A stretch of DNA of 64,000 bases from Defluviicoccus sp. GTDB lineage: Bacteria; Pseudomonadota; Alphaproteobacteria; MPNO01. Shown one piece after another: positions 1,154 to 62,214 of the stretch. The notes beneath the pieces were generated by a model. The model did no database searches. It saw only the letters and a program-made list of their open reading frames with translations, and had not been told where the DNA came from. Location: NCBI GenBank assembly GCA_028821395.1, contig JAPPGP010000186.1, positions 1-64,000 of the forward strand, in the 5' to 3' direction. Numbering within the stretch: the stretch's first letter is position 1; each line of letters starts with the position of its first letter. A program made the position numbers and the translations under genes.

Positions 1154-2404
1154 TCACCGGCGGGCGGTGAGATAGTCCTCGACATGGGCGGCGACGTAGC
1201 GCGCATCGTCGCCGACGCCATAGAGCAGCCCGGACTTCCGCTTCACCATCCAGTTGAGGCCGATAAAGTAGAGACCCGGTACCGACGTCGTGCCGCGGTC
1301 CGTCACCGGATAGCCCATCCCGTCGCGCACGGGAAAGTCGATCCAGGAAAAATCGTATGAGAACCCGGTTGCCCATATGACGGTGGTGACGGTCTCGGCC
1401 GCGAGGTCGATCGAGGGACGAAGGGATACCGACCAATCGTCCTCGGGCGGTTCGCCGTCGAGCTCCTGGGCGGTCGGAGGCGGCGCGTCGATGCCGTTTC
1501 TCTCTACGAACGCGTCCACATTCCGCTGGAAGCCCCGCGAGAACGCGTCGGCACTCTCCATGTTTTGTCGCAGGTCTGCGGCAAAGCCCATGGTACCGCC
1601 GTCCGCCGCCGTTAGCCATCCCAGCAGTTCGACGCCGTCGCGGCGCAGGCGGTGCAGGCCGACCGTCCGCCCCCCGTCGCGCCCGCTGAGCTGCACCTCG
1701 GCCCGGAAACGCTGCGCCGGAGAGTCCAGCATGTCGGGGGTCCGGTCGAAGAAGCCGAGCGCGTCGAGCCACGCGACGCAATCCCGCCCCCGGTAACGAC
1801 GGGGAACGCGCATCGCCCCGCCCGTGCTCAGCATCACCCGCCGCCCGGCGAGCCGCAGCTCGTCCGCGATCTGCCCGCCCGTCTGTCCGGAGCCGACGAC
1901 CAGGACCGCGCCGGGCTCCAGATCCCCGGGATTGCGGTAGCTCTCCGCATCGAGCTGTCGTATATGCGGCGACACGCGTGCGGCGAGGGCCGGCCGGCGC
2001 GGCGTCTGCATCGTGCCGGTGGCGACGACGACCGCCCGGGCCTCGAGCGGACCGTCCGAGGTCGCGACGCGCAGCCGCCCGTTCCCGCCCCGGCCGAGAG
2101 CGGCCACGTCGACACCCGTTCGGATCGGACAGCCGAAACGCCGCGCCCACCCCTCGAGATAGGCCACGAATTCGTCCCGGCGCATGAACCCGTCCGGGTC
2201 GGGACCGTCATACTCCGCTCCCGGCAGCCGGATGGTCCAGTTCGGGGTCACCAGGCTGAAGCCGTCCCATCGGCGTTTCGACCAGCTATCCGCCAGCACC
2301 CCCCGCTCCAGGACCGCGTGGTCGATTCCGCGGTCCGACAGGAAATAGCTGGTGCTGAGCCCGGCTTGCCCCGCGCCGATAACGATGATGTCCGGTCCCC
2401 GCAT
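1154..2404 (-). CDS. Flavin-containing monooxygenase-like FAD/NADPH oxidoreductase
   Basis: A 416-residue protein of the single-component flavoprotein monooxygenase group (CzcO/FMO-like). An N-terminal FAD Rossmann motif VIGAGQAGLS lies at about residues 8-17. A second dinucleotide-binding motif, VVGSGQTGGQ, at about 165 fits NADPH. The sequence VIWATGF, typical of this family, lies in the C-terminal third. Length is normal for the bacterial group. Family members oxygenate soft nucleophiles such as amines or sulfides, or perform Baeyer-Villiger reactions; the substrate cannot be read here. It stands alone between a pseudogene and the DUF924 fusion on the same strand. Confidence 0.85.
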   Translation of the reverse strand: MRGPDIIVIGAGQAGLSTSYFLSDRGIDHAVLERGVLADSWSKRRWDGFSLVTPNWTIRLPGAEYDGPDPDGFMRRDEFVAYLEGWARRFGCPIRTGVDVAALGRGGNGRLRVATSDGPLEARAVVVATGTMQTPRRPALAARVSPHIRQLDAESYRNPGDLEPGAVLVVGSGQTGGQIADELRLAGRRVMLSTGGAMRVPRRYRGRDCVAWLDALGFFDRTPDMLDSPAQRFRAEVQLSGRDGGRTVGLHRLRRDGVELLGWLTAADGGTMGFAADLRQNMESADAFSRGFQRNVDAFVERNGIDAPPPTAQELDGEPPEDDWSVSLRPSIDLAAETVTTVIWATGFSYDFSWIDFPVRDGMGYPVTDRGTTSVPGLYFIGLNWMVKRKSGLLYGVGDDARYVAAHVEDYLTARR

Positions 2405-2524: not shown

Positions 2525-4147
2525 TCAGCTGCCGATTCTCTTGCTCAAGCTCAGATGGTTCCGACCGTTCTCGTGCCGGTATCGCAGGTCGTCGGCATAG
2601 GTGCGGACCAGGTGCAGACCGATGCCCTCCTCCACCGTCTCTTCCATGATCGTGTCGGGTCCGGGCTGGAACATGAACGATTTCGGATCGAGCTCGCGGC
2701 CGTCGTCGACCGTGCGGATCGCGAGTCTGCGTCCCCCGTCGTCCATTTCGAGATGGACATCGATAGACTGCCCGCCGGGATCGTCGTAGCCGTGCTCAAC
2801 GATGTACATCAGCACCTCTTCGATACACAGCTGCACCTGAAACCGGTCCTGTTGCGAAAGTCCGTGCCGGTCGGCGAAACCGTCGACGGCGTCGGCAACC
2901 CGTTCCAGCTCGCTTGCGTCGTTCGGGATGGCCAGGCTGAGGCTCCGAGTCGAGTCCGGCGGCGGATCCGAAGTCGGTTCGAGGCCGTCGCGCCCGCTCG
3001 GCCTTGCGCCTGCCGTCGCCGCGGACGGCCCGTCGCCCCGAACCAGCGCGCTCAATGCCGCGACATCGATCGCGGGTTCCAGCGAGTGCTTGGCGCTGCA
3101 GGGCGGCCAGCTCGAATCTCCGTCCTTCAGGATGAGGCGCCTGACCGCGTCCGTCAGCTCGACCACCGGCGGCGCCCGCCGCAGGCGGTCGAACGTCTGC
3201 GCCTGCTCCGGGAGCCGCAGATGGCGGTAGAGGATCGGATAGGGCACGGCATCGTCACCGGCGAGTGCGAAAAGATCCATCGGCGAAGCCGGATCTTCCG
3301 GGGTAAGCTCCGCGGTGCGGAGCAGACTGGCGACCGCCTCGCGGGCTATCCGGTCTTCGTCGATCCCGTCCGCCACCCGGTGCAATGCGCCCAGCAAGGC
3401 GAAATAATCCGGGTTCAGCGGCTGGGTGAAGCTCCATAGCGGTCGCATCGGGTCGGTGAGGTAGCGCGACTCGCCGCCGCGGTGAGGGCGCATCAGGGCG
3501 GCGTTGCGATGAGGGAAGCGGCCGAACAGGAGCAGCGTCTCGGAGTGCTCGATTGCCGCCTTGACGATCGACCAGCTCACGAATTGGTTGATCCTGCGCC
3601 GATTGCCCGGCACCTCGTTTGTCAGATCGACGCTCCAGCGGGCAAATTTCCGGATCGAGAGCTCCTGGAGCGTCAGGTCCTCGGCATGCGATAGCGGAGC
3701 GTAGATCCAGAAGCGCTCGATGACGTTGTAATTTGCGAATTCGCGATCCGCCTCGCAGGCTTGCCGGGACAACGAGCCGGCGAGGGGGTCGTAGGCGTAG
3801 GCGAGCGCGGTACCGCGGTATACGGTTCGCGGAAACTGGTCGAGGACGATCAGCTTCGCCAGCAAGCCCCTCGGCGTGTTCCAGACCGGATCGCGGAAGA
3901 AGCTATCCAGCCCTTCGCGGTGAATTTGTTCGCACCAGGCGCGCTGCGTTCGAACGGCGTTCGGGTAATCGGCGCTTCTGGCGAACGGCCCGACCCGCCA
4001 TTTCAGCATCCCCTGCTGCCAGTTCTCGCGGGACGCATCCGCCGCCGACCGCAGGGGCCCGAGCCAGAAGTCCAGCACCGCCTCCGGCGATCGTTCCGCG
4101 ATACCGTCTTTTCCGCCGGGTCTCATGTCCAGGGCTGGCCCCGGCAC
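2525..4147 (-). CDS. DUF924 domain fused to anti-sigma-type HATPase domain
   Basis: A 540-residue protein with an unusual architecture. Residues ~20-215 match DUF924 (motifs VLDFWLG, LIVLDQFPRTVYRGTA, FGRFPHRNAAL), normally a stand-alone protein of about 180-200 aa. Residues ~215-390 are a helical linker region I do not recognise. Residues ~410-540 match the RsbW/SpoIIAB-type HATPase (HATPase_c_2), with QLCIEEVLMYIVEHGY as the N box, VDDGRELDP as the G1 region, and EEGIGLHLVRTYADDL. The usual Asn of the N box (EEVLxN) is replaced by Tyr, so ATP/Mg binding may be altered. No sigma factor, STAS partner or PP2C phosphatase gene is adjacent. A second in-frame Met eight codons in is an alternative start. 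Confidence 0.8.
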   Translation of the reverse strand: MPGPALDMRPGGKDGIAERSPEAVLDFWLGPLRSAADASRENWQQGMLKWRVGPFARSADYPNAVRTQRAWCEQIHREGLDSFFRDPVWNTPRGLLAKLIVLDQFPRTVYRGTALAYAYDPLAGSLSRQACEADREFANYNVIERFWIYAPLSHAEDLTLQELSIRKFARWSVDLTNEVPGNRRRINQFVSWSIVKAAIEHSETLLLFGRFPHRNAALMRPHRGGESRYLTDPMRPLWSFTQPLNPDYFALLGALHRVADGIDEDRIAREAVASLLRTAELTPEDPASPMDLFALAGDDAVPYPILYRHLRLPEQAQTFDRLRRAPPVVELTDAVRRLILKDGDSSWPPCSAKHSLEPAIDVAALSALVRGDGPSAATAGARPSGRDGLEPTSDPPPDSTRSLSLAIPNDASELERVADAVDGFADRHGLSQQDRFQVQLCIEEVLMYIVEHGYDDPGGQSIDVHLEMDDGGRRLAIRTVDDGRELDPKSFMFQPGPDTIMEETVEEGIGLHLVRTYADDLRYRHENGRNHLSLSKRIGS

Positions 4148-9669: not shown

Positions 9670-11364
9670 ATGTCGATGCCCGCCCGCGGATACCGGGACC
9701 TGCACGAACACATCGCCGCGCTGCGCGAGGCCGGACTGCTGATCGAGGTCGACCGGCGGATCAACAAGGACACCGAGATGCACCCGCTGGTCCGCTGGCA
9801 GTTCCGCGGCGGCATCGACGCCGAGGACCGCAAGGCCTTCCTGTTCACCAACGTCACCGATTCCAAGGGGCGCGCGTTCGACATCCCGGTCCTGGTCTGC
9901 GGTCTCGCCGCCAACAGCCGGGTCTACGAGATGGGCATGGGCGTGCCGCTGGCCGAGATCAAGGAGAACTGGATCCGGGCGATGAACGCGCCGGTGGAGC
10001 CCAACCGCGTCAACGGCGCGCCGTGCCAGGAGATTGTCTACCGCGACGGCGAGCTGCTGAACGGGCACGGGCTCGACGCGCTGCCGGTACCGATCTCATC
10101 GCCGGGCTGGGACAACGCGCCCTACACCACCTCGTCGCATTTCATCACCAAGGACCCCGATACCGGCGTCCAGAACATGGGCAACTACCGGGGGATGCTG
10201 AAGGCGCCCAACCGGATCGGCATGAACCCGTCGATCGAGCTCAGGACCGGCGGCTACATGCACTGGGAGGCGTGGAAGAGGCGGGACGAGCCGATGCCCT
10301 GCGCGATCGTCCTCGGCGCTCCGCCGATCGTCTCGTTCACCGCCGTCCAGAAGCTGCCGGAAAGGCTCGACGAGCTCTGGGTCTCGGGCGGGCTGGTGGG
10401 GAAGCCGCTCAACGTGACGCGGGCCCGGACGGTCGATCTCCTGGTCCCGGCCGAGGCGGAGGTGGTGATCGAAGGCTTCGTCTCCACCGAGCTGCTGGAG
10501 CCCGAGGCGCCGTTCGGCGAGAGCCACGGCCATGTCAACCTCCAGGAATACAACGGCTACGTGGACGTGACCGCGATCACCAGGCGGCGCGATGCGATCA
10601 TCACCTCCTGGGTGAGCCAGGTGACGCCGTCCGAGTCCAGCGCCATCAAGCGGCCCGCCTACGAGGCGGCGCAGATCGAGCATCTGCGCGACCATCTCGG
10701 CATCAAGGGGGTGAAGCACGTCGCCACCCACGAGCCGCTTACCTCGCTGCACAAGCTGATCGTCGTCGTCGTCGCGCGCGAGACGCCGCGCACCGAGATC
10801 TGGCGCGCGCTCTACGGCGTCGCCTCGCTGCGCCGCGCCGAAGGCAAGTGGGTGATCGCGGTCAACGAGGACATCGACCCCGACGACACCAACGCCGTCT
10901 TCTGGGCGATGTCCTACCGCTCCAAGCCGCATCGCGACGTTGAGATCCTCAAGCACAAGGACGAGGGCCACGGCCCGCGCAGCCTGCTCGACTCCGAGGA
11001 TTCAGCGGTGCTGGTGGACGCGACGCTGAAGGAGACCTTCCCGCCGGTGTCGCTGCCCAAGCGCCAGTACATGGAGGCGGCGGCCGAGATCTGGAACGAG
11101 CTCGGCCTGCCGAAGCTGAGGCCGGAGCGGCCGTGGTTCGGCTACGATCTCGGCGAGTGGAACGAGGATCTGGAAACGATGGCGCGCCGCGCCGTGCGCA
11201 GCGAATATTGGGAGACCGGGCGGATCATCGCCCAGCGCCGGCGCGGCGACGTGTCGATGAACACCGAGGTTCGCACGCTGGACGAGGGGAACCCCGGGGC
11301 GAGCGGCTCGGCAAGCGAGGAGGGAGAGCTCACATGGGACGGCTTGACGGACGCGTCGCGATAG
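9670..11364 (+). CDS. UbiD family decarboxylase, copy 1
   Basis: A 564-residue UbiD-family (de)carboxylase. Enzymes of this family use prenylated FMN to remove or add CO2 on aromatic or alpha,beta-unsaturated acids. The conserved acidic active-site motif appears as PEAPFGESHGHV, and other family blocks include TEMHPLVRWQFRGG and QVTPSESSAIKR. I chose the ATG at 9670 because all three paralogs begin with a YPDLHEHI-like segment there. The ORF upstream (to 8278) is a shadow. The last ten codons overlap the SDR start. No UbiX prenyltransferase gene lies in the window. The substrate is unknown. Confidence 0.92.
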   Translation: MSMPARGYRDLHEHIAALREAGLLIEVDRRINKDTEMHPLVRWQFRGGIDAEDRKAFLFTNVTDSKGRAFDIPVLVCGLAANSRVYEMGMGVPLAEIKENWIRAMNAPVEPNRVNGAPCQEIVYRDGELLNGHGLDALPVPISSPGWDNAPYTTSSHFITKDPDTGVQNMGNYRGMLKAPNRIGMNPSIELRTGGYMHWEAWKRRDEPMPCAIVLGAPPIVSFTAVQKLPERLDELWVSGGLVGKPLNVTRARTVDLLVPAEAEVVIEGFVSTELLEPEAPFGESHGHVNLQEYNGYVDVTAITRRRDAIITSWVSQVTPSESSAIKRPAYEAAQIEHLRDHLGIKGVKHVATHEPLTSLHKLIVVVVARETPRTEIWRALYGVASLRRAEGKWVIAVNEDIDPDDTNAVFWAMSYRSKPHRDVEILKHKDEGHGPRSLLDSEDSAVLVDATLKETFPPVSLPKRQYMEAAAEIWNELGLPKLRPERPWFGYDLGEWNEDLETMARRAVRSEYWETGRIIAQRRRGDVSMNTEVRTLDEGNPGASGSASEEGELTWDGLTDASR

Positions 11365-12092
11365 TCACCGGCGCCGCGCAGGGAATCGGCGCGGCCTTCG
11401 CCCGCGCGATGGCGGCGGAGGGAGCGAAGATCGCCATCGCCGACCTCGACTCCGGACAGTCCGTGGTGGACGAGCTGAAGGCCGGCGGCGCCGAGGCCAT
11501 CGACGTGCCCACCGACGTCGCCGACGAGGAGTCCTGCAAGGCGATGGTCGCGCGCACGGCGGAGGCGTTCGGCGGGCTCGACATCGTCGTCAACAACGCC
11601 GCCGTGTTCACCGCGGTGCAGCGCAAGCCCTTCGACGAGATCACCGTCGAGGAGTGGGACAAGGTGCTTGCCGTCAACGCCAAGGGAGTCTGGCTCTGCT
11701 GCAAGGCGGCGGCGCCGGAGATGCGCAAGAAGCAATACGGCAAGATCGTCTCGATCTGCACCGGGCGGATCTTCAAGGGCGCGCCCTTCTTCCTGCATTA
11801 CGACGCGTCCAAAGCCGCGGTGCTCGGCATCACCCGCTCGCTCGCCCGCGAGCTCGGCGACGACAATATCTGCGTCAACGCCATCGCCCCGGGCTCGACG
11901 ATGTCGGAGAACGTTCTGAAGCGCACCAACTGGATGGGCGGCGGGCCGGAACGCACGCGCGCGACAAGGGCGATCAAGCAGGACGAGACGCCCGAGGATC
12001 TGGTCGGCGCCTGCATCTATCTCGCGTCCGCCGACAGCGACTTCGTCACGGGCCAGACCATCGTCGTCGATGGCGGCTCGGCCATGTGGTAG
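11334..12092 (+). CDS. SDR family oxidoreductase
   Basis: A 252-residue classical short-chain dehydrogenase. The cofactor motif TGAAQGIG is at residues 12-19, NNAA at 87-90 and YDASK at 156-160. The residue 13 before the catalytic Tyr, usually Ser, is Thr143, so a hydroxyl is kept. Asp37 after the second strand suggests NAD preference. Start ATG at 11334 follows AGGAGGGAG and lies inside the end of UbiD copy 1. The gene ends directly before UbiD copy 2, so all four genes form one operon. It probably oxidises or reduces an alcohol/ketone intermediate of the same pathway. Confidence 0.9.
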   Translation: MGRLDGRVAIVTGAAQGIGAAFARAMAAEGAKIAIADLDSGQSVVDELKAGGAEAIDVPTDVADEESCKAMVARTAEAFGGLDIVVNNAAVFTAVQRKPFDEITVEEWDKVLAVNAKGVWLCCKAAAPEMRKKQYGKIVSICTGRIFKGAPFFLHYDASKAAVLGITRSLARELGDDNICVNAIAPGSTMSENVLKRTNWMGGGPERTRATRAIKQDETPEDLVGACIYLASADSDFVTGQTIVVDGGSAMW

Positions 12093-13745
12093 ATGGCGAC
12101 CGCCCTCCCGGACCCGGCCGCGCGGCGCGCCTACCCGGACTTCCGCGACCATATCCGCGCGCTCGACCGGGCGGGCCTCCTGTTCCGCGTCGACGAGCCG
12201 ATCGACAAGGATGCCGAGATGCATCCGCTGGTCCGCTGGCAGTTTCGCGGGGGGTTGCGGGAAGACCAGCGCAAGGCCTTCCTGTTCTCCAACATCGGCG
12301 ACGCGAAAGGCCGGCGTTACGACATGCCCGTCGTCATCGGCGCGCTTGCCGCGAGCGCCCGGATCTACGCCATCGGCATGGGCGTGCCGGTGGACAAGAT
12401 CGGCGAGCGCTGGACCGAGGCGATCGCCCATCCGATCCCGCCCGTCCAGGTGGCGCGCGCGCCTTGCCAGGAGGCGGTGGTGGAGGGCGACGCGCTGCGC
12501 GGCGAGGGGCGGGGGCTCGATGCGCTTCCGGTGCCGATCTCGACCCCCGGCTTCGACGCCGCGCCCTATTTCACCGCGACCGGCTGCGTCACCCGGAACC
12601 CCGAGACCGGGGTGCAGAACATGGGGACCTACCGGGCCGGGCTGAAGGCGCCGGACCGGCTCGCGGTCCGCATGGCGACGCGGTCGGGCGGCGCCGAGGG
12701 CTATCGGCACTGGCTGCAATACCGGGAGCGCGGCGAGGAGATGCCCTGCGCCATCGTCCTCGGCCCGCCGCCGGCGGTCGCCTATTGCGCGCCCCAGAAG
12801 CTGCAGATGGGGCTCGACGAGGTGGCGGTGGCGGGGGGGATCGCCGGCGCCCCGATCGATGTCGTGCGCTGCCGGACGGTGGATCTCACGGTGCCCGCCG
12901 ATTCGGAAATCGTCATCGAGGGCCTGATCGACACCGAGCTCGTCGAGCCGGAGGCGCCGTTCGGCGAGAGCCACGGCCATGTCGCGCTCGAGGACTACAA
13001 CATGATCATGCGGGTGAGCGCGATCACCCACCGTCGCGGCGCCATCCTGCCCTCGATCATCAGCCAGGTGACGCCGTCCGAATCGAGCGTCATCAAGCGC
13101 GTTGCCTACGAGCCCCTGTTCCTCACCCACCTGACCGAGCGTCTCGGCATCAAGGGTGTCAGGCGGGTGGTCATGCACGAGCCGCTGACCAATATCCGCC
13201 GGGTGATCTTCGTCCAGTTCGAGCGCGGCGTGCCGCGGACCGAGGTGTGGCGGGCACTCTACGGGGCTTCGACGCTGCAATCGGCCTGCGGGAAGTACGT
13301 CGTCGCGGTGTCCGACGACATCGATCCCGAGAACGCCGACGCCGTCTGGTGGTCGATCGCCTACCGCGCCAACCCGCGCGAGGACTCGGCCGTGCTCGAC
13401 CATCGCCACCGCGGCCATGGGCCGAAGACGGAAGACCCGGACTTCGAGGACTCGACGCTGCTGATCGACGCCACGCTCAAGGGCGACATGCCGCCTGTCG
13501 CGCTTCCCCGCGAGGCGTTTATGCAGCGTGCGCGAAAGATCTGGGAACGCCTGGATTTGCCGCCGCTCAACCCCGAGAGCCCGTGGGCGGGGTATTCGCT
13601 GGGCGACTGGGAGGAGCGCTGGGAACAGGCAGCCGCGCGTGCCGTCGCGGGCGATTATCTGGAGAACGGCCGGCTGACCGCGCAGCGCCGGCGCCGCGCG
13701 GTCGAGCCCGAGACCCCGGTCCGCTGGGTCGAGGGCGATGTCTGA
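12093..13745 (+). CDS. UbiD family decarboxylase, copy 2
   Basis: A 550-residue UbiD paralog whose ATG immediately follows the SDR stop codon (TAGATG). The conserved blocks AEMHPLVRWQFRGG, PEAPFGESHGHV and QVTPSESSVIKR are present. It differs most from its neighbours in the loop around residues 150-220 (for example FDAAPYFTATGC, where copies 1 and 3 have WDNAPYTT), which suggests a different substrate pocket. It overlaps copy 3 by 8 bases. Same prenyl-FMN chemistry expected from the family. Confidence 0.92.
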   Translation: MATALPDPAARRAYPDFRDHIRALDRAGLLFRVDEPIDKDAEMHPLVRWQFRGGLREDQRKAFLFSNIGDAKGRRYDMPVVIGALAASARIYAIGMGVPVDKIGERWTEAIAHPIPPVQVARAPCQEAVVEGDALRGEGRGLDALPVPISTPGFDAAPYFTATGCVTRNPETGVQNMGTYRAGLKAPDRLAVRMATRSGGAEGYRHWLQYRERGEEMPCAIVLGPPPAVAYCAPQKLQMGLDEVAVAGGIAGAPIDVVRCRTVDLTVPADSEIVIEGLIDTELVEPEAPFGESHGHVALEDYNMIMRVSAITHRRGAILPSIISQVTPSESSVIKRVAYEPLFLTHLTERLGIKGVRRVVMHEPLTNIRRVIFVQFERGVPRTEVWRALYGASTLQSACGKYVVAVSDDIDPENADAVWWSIAYRANPREDSAVLDHRHRGHGPKTEDPDFEDSTLLIDATLKGDMPPVALPREAFMQRARKIWERLDLPPLNPESPWAGYSLGDWEERWEQAAARAVAGDYLENGRLTAQRRRRAVEPETPVRWVEGDV

Positions 13746-15372
13746 GCGCGGCTATCCCGACCTGCACGACCACATCGCCGCGCTGGACGAGGCCGGGCTG
13801 CTGGTCCGCGTCGACCGCGAGATCAACAAGGACACCGAGATGCACCCGCTGGTCCGCTGGCAATTTCGCGGCGGCATCCCGGAGCCCGAGCGCAAGGCGT
13901 TCCTGTTCACCAACGTGGTGGATTCGCGGGGCCGCCGCTACGACATCCCGGTGATCGTCGGCGGGCTGGCGGCGAGCCGGGAGATCTACCGCCGCGGCAT
14001 CGGCTGCGAGCTTGAGCAGATCGAGGAACGCTGGGCGGAGGCGATCGCCAACCCGATCCCGCCGCGCGAGATCGCGGACGCGCCGTGCCACGAGCTGGTG
14101 TTTACCGGCGAGGCGTTGAATGCCGCGGGCAACGCGCTCGACGGTATCCCGGTGCCGATCTCGACCCCGGGCTGGGACAACGCGCCCTATACGACGCTGT
14201 CGCAATACATCACCCGGGATCCCGACACCGGCATCCAGAACATGGGCAACTATCGCGGCCAGGTGAAGGCGCCGCGCCGTCTCGGCATGAACCCCTCGCT
14301 CGAGCTGCGGCCCGGGATCTACGCCCATTGGCAGAAATACCGGGCGCGCGGCGAGCCCATGCCGGCGGCCGTGGTGCTCGGCGCGCCGCCCTGCGTCACC
14401 TTCACCTCGACGCTGAAATTGCCGGAGACGGTCTGCGAGTTCGACATCGCGGGCGGGCTGGTGGGCCACCCGCTGAACGTGGTCAGGGCCAGGACTGTGG
14501 ACCTGCTGGTCCCGGCGGAGGCCGAGATCGTCGTCGAGGGGTTCATCGACACCGAGTACCTGGAGCCCGAGGCGCCGTTCGGCGAGAGCCACGGCCACGT
14601 GAACTTGCAGGAGTTCAACGCCTTCATGGACGTGACCGCGGTGACCCGGCGGCGGAATGCGGTGCTGACCTCGATCGTCAGCCAGGTGACGCCGTCCGAA
14701 TCGAGCACCATAAAGCGGGTGGCGATGGAGCCCCTCTTCCTCGCCCATCTCAGGGACGCGCTCGGCATCAAGGGGGTGCTCCGGGTCGGCATGCACGAGC
14801 CGCTGACCAATATCCGCAAGGTGATCGTGGTCCAGGTCGAGCGCGAGACGCCGCGCACCGAGATCTGGCGCGCGCTCTACGGCGCGGCATCGCTGCACCG
14901 CGCGGCCGGGAAGTACGTGATCGCGGTCAACGAGGACATCGACCCGGACAACGCCGATGCGCTGTTCTGGGCGATGGCCTACCGCGCCAACCCCGCTCTC
15001 GACCTCGAAGTACTGGGCCACCGCGACCAGGGCCACGGCCCGCGCAGCCTGCGCAACGACGGCGAGGATGCGAGCGTGCTGATCGACGCGACGCTGAAGG
15101 AGGATTTCCCGCCGATCTCGCTGCCCAAGCGCGAGTTCATGGAGAACGCAAGGGAAATCTGGGAGGAGCTCGGCCTGCCGCCGATCAAGCCGGAGACGCC
15201 GTGGCACGGCTACAGCCTCGGCGAGTGGTCCGACGAGTTCGATCGCGCGGCCGAGCTGGCGACGCAGGGGGATTACTTCGAGACCGGCCGCATCATCGCC
15301 CAGCGGCGGCGCAAGGACGTGGAGATGAACACCGAGGTGCGCCGGGTGAAAGGGGAAGGCGAACGCGGCTAG
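13738..15372 (+). CDS. UbiD family decarboxylase, copy 3
   Basis: A 544-residue UbiD paralog, closer to copy 1 than to copy 2 by eye (shared WDNAPYTT, NIQNMGNYRG-like and VNLQEFN/VNLQEYN segments). Active-site motif PEAPFGESHGHV retained. Its start overlaps the end of copy 2 (ATGTCTGA). It closes the operon; palindromic repeats begin about 50 bases after its stop. UbiD and UbiD-like proteins sometimes work as multi-subunit enzymes, so copies 1-3 could be subunits rather than separate enzymes. Confidence 0.92.
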   Translation: MSERGYPDLHDHIAALDEAGLLVRVDREINKDTEMHPLVRWQFRGGIPEPERKAFLFTNVVDSRGRRYDIPVIVGGLAASREIYRRGIGCELEQIEERWAEAIANPIPPREIADAPCHELVFTGEALNAAGNALDGIPVPISTPGWDNAPYTTLSQYITRDPDTGIQNMGNYRGQVKAPRRLGMNPSLELRPGIYAHWQKYRARGEPMPAAVVLGAPPCVTFTSTLKLPETVCEFDIAGGLVGHPLNVVRARTVDLLVPAEAEIVVEGFIDTEYLEPEAPFGESHGHVNLQEFNAFMDVTAVTRRRNAVLTSIVSQVTPSESSTIKRVAMEPLFLAHLRDALGIKGVLRVGMHEPLTNIRKVIVVQVERETPRTEIWRALYGAASLHRAAGKYVIAVNEDIDPDNADALFWAMAYRANPALDLEVLGHRDQGHGPRSLRNDGEDASVLIDATLKEDFPPISLPKREFMENAREIWEELGLPPIKPETPWHGYSLGEWSDEFDRAAELATQGDYFETGRIIAQRRRKDVEMNTEVRRVKGEGERG

Positions 15373-61015: not shown

Positions 61016-62214
61016 GCGGGACCCAAGATCGCGTCCTGATTGCGGGGGCGGGTCCGGTCGGCAGCGTCGCCGCGCTGGCGCTGGCGCGCGCCGGCATCCC
61101 GGTGACCCTGGTCGAGGCCTGTGACAGCCTGCCGCTCGATCTTCGCGCCTCGACCTTCCACCCGCCGACCCTCGACATGCTCGACGAGCTCGACGTCGTC
61201 GATGCGCTGATCGCCCAGGGCATCGTCTGCCCGGTCTGGCAGAACCGCGATACCGCGCGCGGCATCGTCGCCGAGTGGGATCTCGGCGTTCTCAGGGACG
61301 ACACCGGCCACCCCTACCGGGTGCAGGCCGAGCAGTACAAGCTCAACGGCATCGTCGTCGACATCCTGGAGGGGATGCAAGAGGCCGAAGTCAGGTTCTC
61401 CACCGAAGCGGTCGCCGCCCGCCAGGATTCCGACCGGGTCATGCTCGACGTGGACGGGCCGGGTGGCGCGATAACCCTGACCGGGCGCTACCTGATCGCC
61501 GCCGACGGCGCATCGAGCGTTGTCCGCATCGGCGCGGGGATCGGGTTTCCCGGCCTCACCTTCCCCGAGCTCTGGCTCTGCACCTCGACGGAATACGACT
61601 TCGCGGCCCATTTCGAGAATCTCGCGCCCATCGCCTATGTCGCCGACCCGGAATCCTGGTTCGTGTTCGTGCGCGTGCCCGGCCTGTGGCGGCTGCTGAT
61701 GCCGACCCGGCCCGGCGACACCGCCGAGGAGCTGGTGAGCGAGGAGGTGGTCCAGGCGCGGATGCACGCCGTCTGTCCCAAGGAAGGGCCGTACGAGACC
61801 TATCACCGGACGGCCTACGCGGTGCATCAGCGGGTCGCGGAGACCTACCGCGCGGGACGGATCTTCCTCGCCGGCGATTCGGCCCACATCAACAACCCGC
61901 TCGGCGGGATGGGGATGAACGGCGGCATCCACGATGCGGTCAATCTGTGCGCCAAGATCGTCAAGGTGTGGCACGGCGAGGCGGACGAGGCGCTGTTCGA
62001 CCTCTACGACGCGCAGCGCCGGCCGATCGCCGTCGAATACGTGCAGGCGGCGACGCTGCGCAACAAGGCGCTGCTGGAGGAAAGGGACCCCACGGTGCGG
62101 GAGAAGCGGCTCGACGACCTCGCCCGCCAGGCCGAGGACCCGGCGAAGGCGCGCGAGTTCCTGCTGCGCTCCTCGATGATCGCGGCGTTGAGAAAGGCGG
62201 AGGCGGTCGGCTGA
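61012..62214 (+). CDS. FAD-dependent aromatic-hydroxylase-like monooxygenase with a CTG start
   Basis: A 400-residue group A flavoprotein monooxygenase (PHBH fold). VLIAGAGPVGSVAAL is the FAD loop, LIAADGASSVVR fits the DG motif, and FLAGDSAHINNPLGGMGMNG is the GD motif. The frame has no ATG, GTG or TTG in front of the FAD loop. CTG at 61012 overlaps the upstream stop (CTGA) with GAGG 6 bases before it, so I take this as the start. The enzymes hydroxylate aromatic substrates. Confidence 0.85.
   Translation: MSGTQDRVLIAGAGPVGSVAALALARAGIPVTLVEACDSLPLDLRASTFHPPTLDMLDELDVVDALIAQGIVCPVWQNRDTARGIVAEWDLGVLRDDTGHPYRVQAEQYKLNGIVVDILEGMQEAEVRFSTEAVAARQDSDRVMLDVDGPGGAITLTGRYLIAADGASSVVRIGAGIGFPGLTFPELWLCTSTEYDFAAHFENLAPIAYVADPESWFVFVRVPGLWRLLMPTRPGDTAEELVSEEVVQARMHAVCPKEGPYETYHRTAYAVHQRVAETYRAGRIFLAGDSAHINNPLGGMGMNGGIHDAVNLCAKIVKVWHGEADEALFDLYDAQRRPIAVEYVQAATLRNKALLEERDPTVREKRLDDLARQAEDPAKAREFLLRSSMIAALRKAEAVG

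Follow-up and report, generated by a model that had tools for sequence, protein, structure and literature searches.

A DUF924 protein fused to a degenerate RsbW-type GHKL domain in Defluviicoccus and other bacteria

Domain architecture and predicted fold

The window (the whole 64,000-nucleotide stretch analysed here) lies on contig C227 of a Defluviicoccus sp. genome assembly of 266 contigs with an estimated contamination of 5.3%. An open reading frame at positions 2525–4147, on the reverse strand like all features of the fusion given below, encodes 540 residues in a single frame without a break and carries a DUF924 domain, a middle helical domain and a degenerate GHKL domain; the next gene downstream (1154–2404, reverse strand) encodes a FAD-dependent oxidoreductase. 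The initial annotation had read the frame as DUF924 fused to an RsbW-like HATPase, and Pfam places both domains in it above their cut-offs, DUF924 (PF06041, residues 23–232, positions 3452–4081) with 115.4 bits against a gathering cut-off of 27 (E 4e-33) and HATPase_c_2 (PF13581, residues 406–535, positions 2543–2932) with 71.1 against 27.4 bits (E 1e-19). The frame begins with GTG at 4147, but homologues align from about Met8, so translation probably begins at the in-frame ATG of this residue, 4124–4126. The architecture has apparently not been described until now.

The structure predicted from a 47-sequence alignment has a mean pLDDT of 81, most of the HATPase domain, though not its lid, reaching roughly 90 or above (an earlier model built from six close sequences reached a pLDDT of 51 and was discarded). 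Foldseek comparison with the PDB matches the modelled C-terminus to SpoIIAB (1til, TM 0.80) and RsbW (6m37 and 6m36, TM 0.86–0.89), i.e. to the GHKL fold, and the DUF924 part to 2i6h_A (TM 0.72). In a library of viral structures a single match falls below E 0.001, to a GHKL protein from a Streptomyces phage.

The likeness of the N-terminal part to Atu0120 (2I6H, PF06041) consists of the fold together with the conserved DQxPR, HxE and RFPHRN residues. The fusion keeps the motif residues D-Q-x-P-R, R, D, H-x-E and RFPHRN, and alignment columns show that it retains the majority of the polar positions conserved among stand-alone DUF924 proteins. Stand-alone members differ in having neither the fusion's insert at residues ~180–198 nor its middle domain and GHKL tail. 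A literature search found no paper on DUF924, and it has no known function or activity.

Between the two Pfam domains the initial annotation had placed a long unassigned linker, a description that holds only for a variable hinge at residues ~346–400, the low-confidence core of which (residues ~373–396, positions 2960–3031) falls below pLDDT 50 at 376–394. Residues ~246–340 (positions 3128–3412) are instead conserved among homologues and are modelled mostly as confident helices, with two short strands at 266–268 and 300–302. This middle domain has no Pfam match, EF-hand included. It gives weak profile matches to EF-hand proteins, and a direct hhalign comparison with EF-hand is likewise weak (P 0.019 against 0.15–0.78 for controls, probability 2.5%). 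Neither candidate EF-hand loop has the position-12 Glu when the alignment is read by eye, and calcium ligands are missing. The evidence for an EF-hand-like pair is therefore weak and, despite the pattern of helices and strands, we treat it as a lead only, given the silence of Pfam and the missing ligands.

The ATP site of the GHKL tail

The ATP site was compared across 11 fusion copies with a readable N box and 18 other HATPases, stand-alone or joined to PP2C sequence, in an alignment that also included 17 stand-alone DUF924 proteins. The N box of the window's protein reads EEVLMYIVEHGY, with Tyr448 (codon 2804–2806) at the position of the Mg-coordinating Asn, just as the initial annotation had noted, and this Asn is absent from all 11 fusion copies (Tyr in ten, His in one) and present in 18 of 18 other HATPases. 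Two positions of the lid behave in the same way: Arg504 is found in 0/11 fusion copies against 17/18 other HATPases, and the first lid glycine, Gly507, in 0/11 against 16/18. Other residues of the site are kept, namely the N-box Glu444 and Gly510 (each 11/11) and, in nine of eleven copies, Asp481 of the G1 box, which the remaining two lack. Since the 29 HATPases compared are related by descent, these counts are not independent trials.

Compared with RsbW and SpoIIAB, the tail thus has in common the fold and topology (TM 0.80–0.89), the N-box Glu, the G1 Asp in most copies and the lid GLG, and differs in the loss of the N-box Asn, lid Arg and first lid Gly, in being joined to DUF924 and in lying on a contig without STAS or PP2C genes. 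Its scores against the NCBIfam equivalogs for RsbW/SpoIIAB are below the cut-offs (37.5 against 145 bits and 29.4 against 155 bits), as are those of the canonical HATPases of the same genome. The genome's two other strong HATPase_c_2 genes, on contigs C187 and C212, have a canonical ATP site.

In related domains, changing the active-site Asn to Ala strongly reduces phosphorylation of CapS by CapK (N218A, PMC13373217) and abolishes the function of SspH (N54A, PMC9137472). By analogy with these mutants, the family-wide loss of the Asn argues against catalysis by the tail, which appears to be kinase-dead. The tail may still bind a nucleotide, since the N-box Glu and, in most copies, the adenine-binding Asp are kept.

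The degenerate tail is maintained and is not decaying, as both it and the DUF924 domain are under purifying selection. Pairwise dN/dS values (Nei-Gojobori) are 0.14–0.49 for the HATPase and 0.09–0.30 for DUF924, and those of the middle domain and hinge lie mostly above both. A decaying pseudogene is ruled out for the family, with omega well below 1, although individual broken copies do exist (in L036, in L037 and as the second copy of G004). With the N-box Asn lost at one fixed position, purifying selection still acting and a domain of unknown function attached, the family is a natural experiment on the uses of a GHKL fold in the absence of catalysis.

Distribution and genomic neighbourhood

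Searches of other genomes for the same domain order recovered full-length homologues from two orders of Alphaproteobacteria and from another three MAGs. The fusion is kept end to end, at ~59–72% identity, in G003 (two copies), G004, L034, L035, L036, G408, G303 and G210; G003 and G004 (one intact copy) belong to the window's own genus, and L034, L035 and L036 come from public MAGs labelled Rhodobacteraceae and Rhodospirillales. The intact G004 copy lies on a 5952-base contig that matches L033, from a public Defluviicoccus sp. MAG. In no relative are the two halves encoded as adjacent separate genes. As the three-part protein and the same Asn loss recur in other bacteria, this is a real protein architecture and not an accident of annotation. 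A split gene or assembly artefact is ruled out by full-length copies in several independent assemblies.

The fusion is nevertheless rare and patchy in its occurrence, as a profile of the middle domain is positive in few genomes of any order or class: three of 27 in the window's order, all from its genus, 3/11 in the order of G303, and 4 of the 385 genomes sampled from the class, including the window's own and one marginal case. The match in G058 is weak (E 8e-4), and a full protein search gave it no confirmation. Some copies are broken. In L036 a frameshift interrupts the DUF924 domain, and the copy of L037 (5024–6984) is truncated to the DUF924 part, 78% identical, beside a recombinase-like ORF; the latter comes from a MAG labelled Immundisolibacterales, for which horizontal transfer or a binning error is possible. 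In G004 the other copy breaks off within the hinge, where two contigs end (L041 5641–5798 and L042 6241–6404). Both ends carry an inverted repeat of 20 bases, TTAACCCGACTTCCGCAACT on one and the complement on the other, which suggests interruption by an inserted element. The COS and RHO names of the MAGs would fit the sponge hosts Coscinoderma and Rhopaloeides, which are among the species sampled in PMC8163846, and hint at most at a life as sponge symbionts.

In G408 and G303, which are close relatives, the fusion is far more diverged than its surroundings. The dnaK and dnaJ genes beside the locus are 99.5% identical between the two genomes (dS 0.11–0.19), against 71.7% for the fusion (dS 0.60), a divergence that equals the distance between orders (window against L075, dS 0.64). 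Sliding nucleotide identity of L075 (5000–8200) against L076, from G408 and G303, is 96–99% over dnaK and 82–91% over the intergenic approach, 95–96% where the fusion gene begins and 63–85% through its remainder. It drops to as little as 52% in the gap downstream of the gene and is 85–97% over the oxidoreductase. With a diverged gene between far more similar flanks, the simplest reading, suggested by this one genome pair, is that the fusion was replaced by a foreign allele at a fixed locus.

The FAD-dependent oxidoreductase is the next gene downstream in six genomes (the window's, G003, G004, G408, G303 and G210), an operon-like pairing with an intergenic gap of 12 to about 130 bases and an association that spans two genera only. 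It scores 436.8 bits against TIGR04046 (MSMEG_0569), below the equivalog cut-off of 498.35, and is thus a close relative of that family only. Among 42 genomes searched at E 1e-80, close orthologues (66–80% identity) occur only in those six, counting both pieces of the G303 gene, which is split across two contigs, and never without the fusion; G417 and G024 have more distant orthologues (40–53% identity). A functional link between fusion and oxidoreductase seems plausible from this distribution. It would not be obligatory, as the oxidoreductase is absent from G414–G416, which have the fusion, and does not adjoin the second fusion copies of G003 and G004. Gene comparison around L034, L035, L036 and L038 found no shared conserved neighbours.

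The claim that no STAS or PP2C gene lies nearby stands at the level of the contig, C227 carrying neither: the genome has a single SpoIIE-type PP2C, which lies on C212, and six STAS matches, all on contigs other than C227. At C212:52804–53831 a canonical, Asn-bearing HATPase adjoins the PP2C, which is SiaA-like, and a STAS gene lies about 8 kb from this pair, at 61267. These C212 genes are likely the genome's partner-switch module.

Possible roles of the fusion

The reading we favour, tentatively and at somewhat less than even odds, is that of a cytoplasmic three-part adaptor or regulator that would serve the flavin oxidoreductase. The TPR-like DUF924 domain, its conserved motifs intact, would form the N-terminal body, connected by the helical middle domain and flexible hinge to a GHKL head of the RsbW/SpoIIAB kind. 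Being putatively kinase-dead, this head would not phosphorylate a STAS protein but would act as a protein–protein module, possibly dimerising, which may or may not bind nucleotide in a metal-free manner. Where the oxidoreductase adjoins, the fusion might take part in that enzyme's pathway as activator, scaffold or sensor. The protein-binding head is favoured by the loss of function in the Asn-to-Ala mutants and by the precedent of MTOPVIB, a degenerate GHKL protein that does not bind ATP and is still a subunit of a dimeric complex (PMC11077084). The likeness to MTOPVIB lies in the use of a degenerate GHKL fold as a structural subunit; MTOPVIB belongs to the eukaryotic topoisomerase VIB lineage, has an unrelated architecture, and its lack of ATP binding was measured, whereas that of the fusion would be an extrapolation. 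CapK (HTH-STAS-GHKL) likewise joins a GHKL domain of serine-kinase type to other domains in a non-sigma role, but retains the active-site Asn and phosphorylates CapS, and the fusion's tail is without that Asn (PMC13373217). Architecture, predicted fold and the conserved loss of ATP-site residues are observed; kinase deadness, partner binding and a regulatory role are inferred.

Other readings start from the same residues and neighbours. The tail could have diverged and yet remain active as an anti-sigma or serine kinase, with Tyr or some other residue taking the role of the Asn and with STAS partners encoded elsewhere in the genome. The retained Glu444, Asp481 and Gly510 would fit this, as would the STAS matches and PP2C on other contigs, but we regard it as improbable given that Asn, lid Arg and first lid Gly are gone from every copy and the G1 Asp from two, that the corresponding mutants of related domains lose function (PMC13373217, PMC9137472) and that the tail scores so far under the NCBIfam RsbW cut-off. 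A little less improbable, if still unlikely, is a tail that acts as a dominant-negative partner, forming heterodimers with canonical RsbW-like kinases and so titrating the kinases or their STAS targets. The predicted RsbW fold is kept and the same genome does encode canonical HATPases on C187 and C212, the latter beside the SiaA-like PP2C; however, the fusion has no genomic linkage to these modules, and both DUF924 and the conserved oxidoreductase gene would be left unexplained.

The pairing with the oxidoreductase could also mean that the DUF924 domain has an enzymatic or ligand-binding activity of its own, towards that enzyme's substrate, with the GHKL tail as no more than an allosteric or structural appendage. 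The polar residues shared with stand-alone DUF924 proteins agree with this, although no DUF924 activity is known and the literature search found no paper on the family, and we give it the same low standing as the dominant-negative partner. Whichever holds, the pairing is a concrete lead on the role of a DUF924 protein. The adaptor reading extends, more doubtfully, to a new class of bacterial pseudokinase regulators in which a DUF924 body with a kinase-dead RsbW-type head would control or scaffold a specific flavin oxidoreductase, its alleles being exchanged at a fixed locus.

Elsewhere in the window, on the forward strand at ~9900–15369, three consecutive ORFs have similar starts (GYRDLHEHIAALREAGLL, YPDFRDHIRALDRAGLL and GYPDLHDHIAALDEAGLL), and by eye they resemble tandem UbiD-type decarboxylase paralogues.
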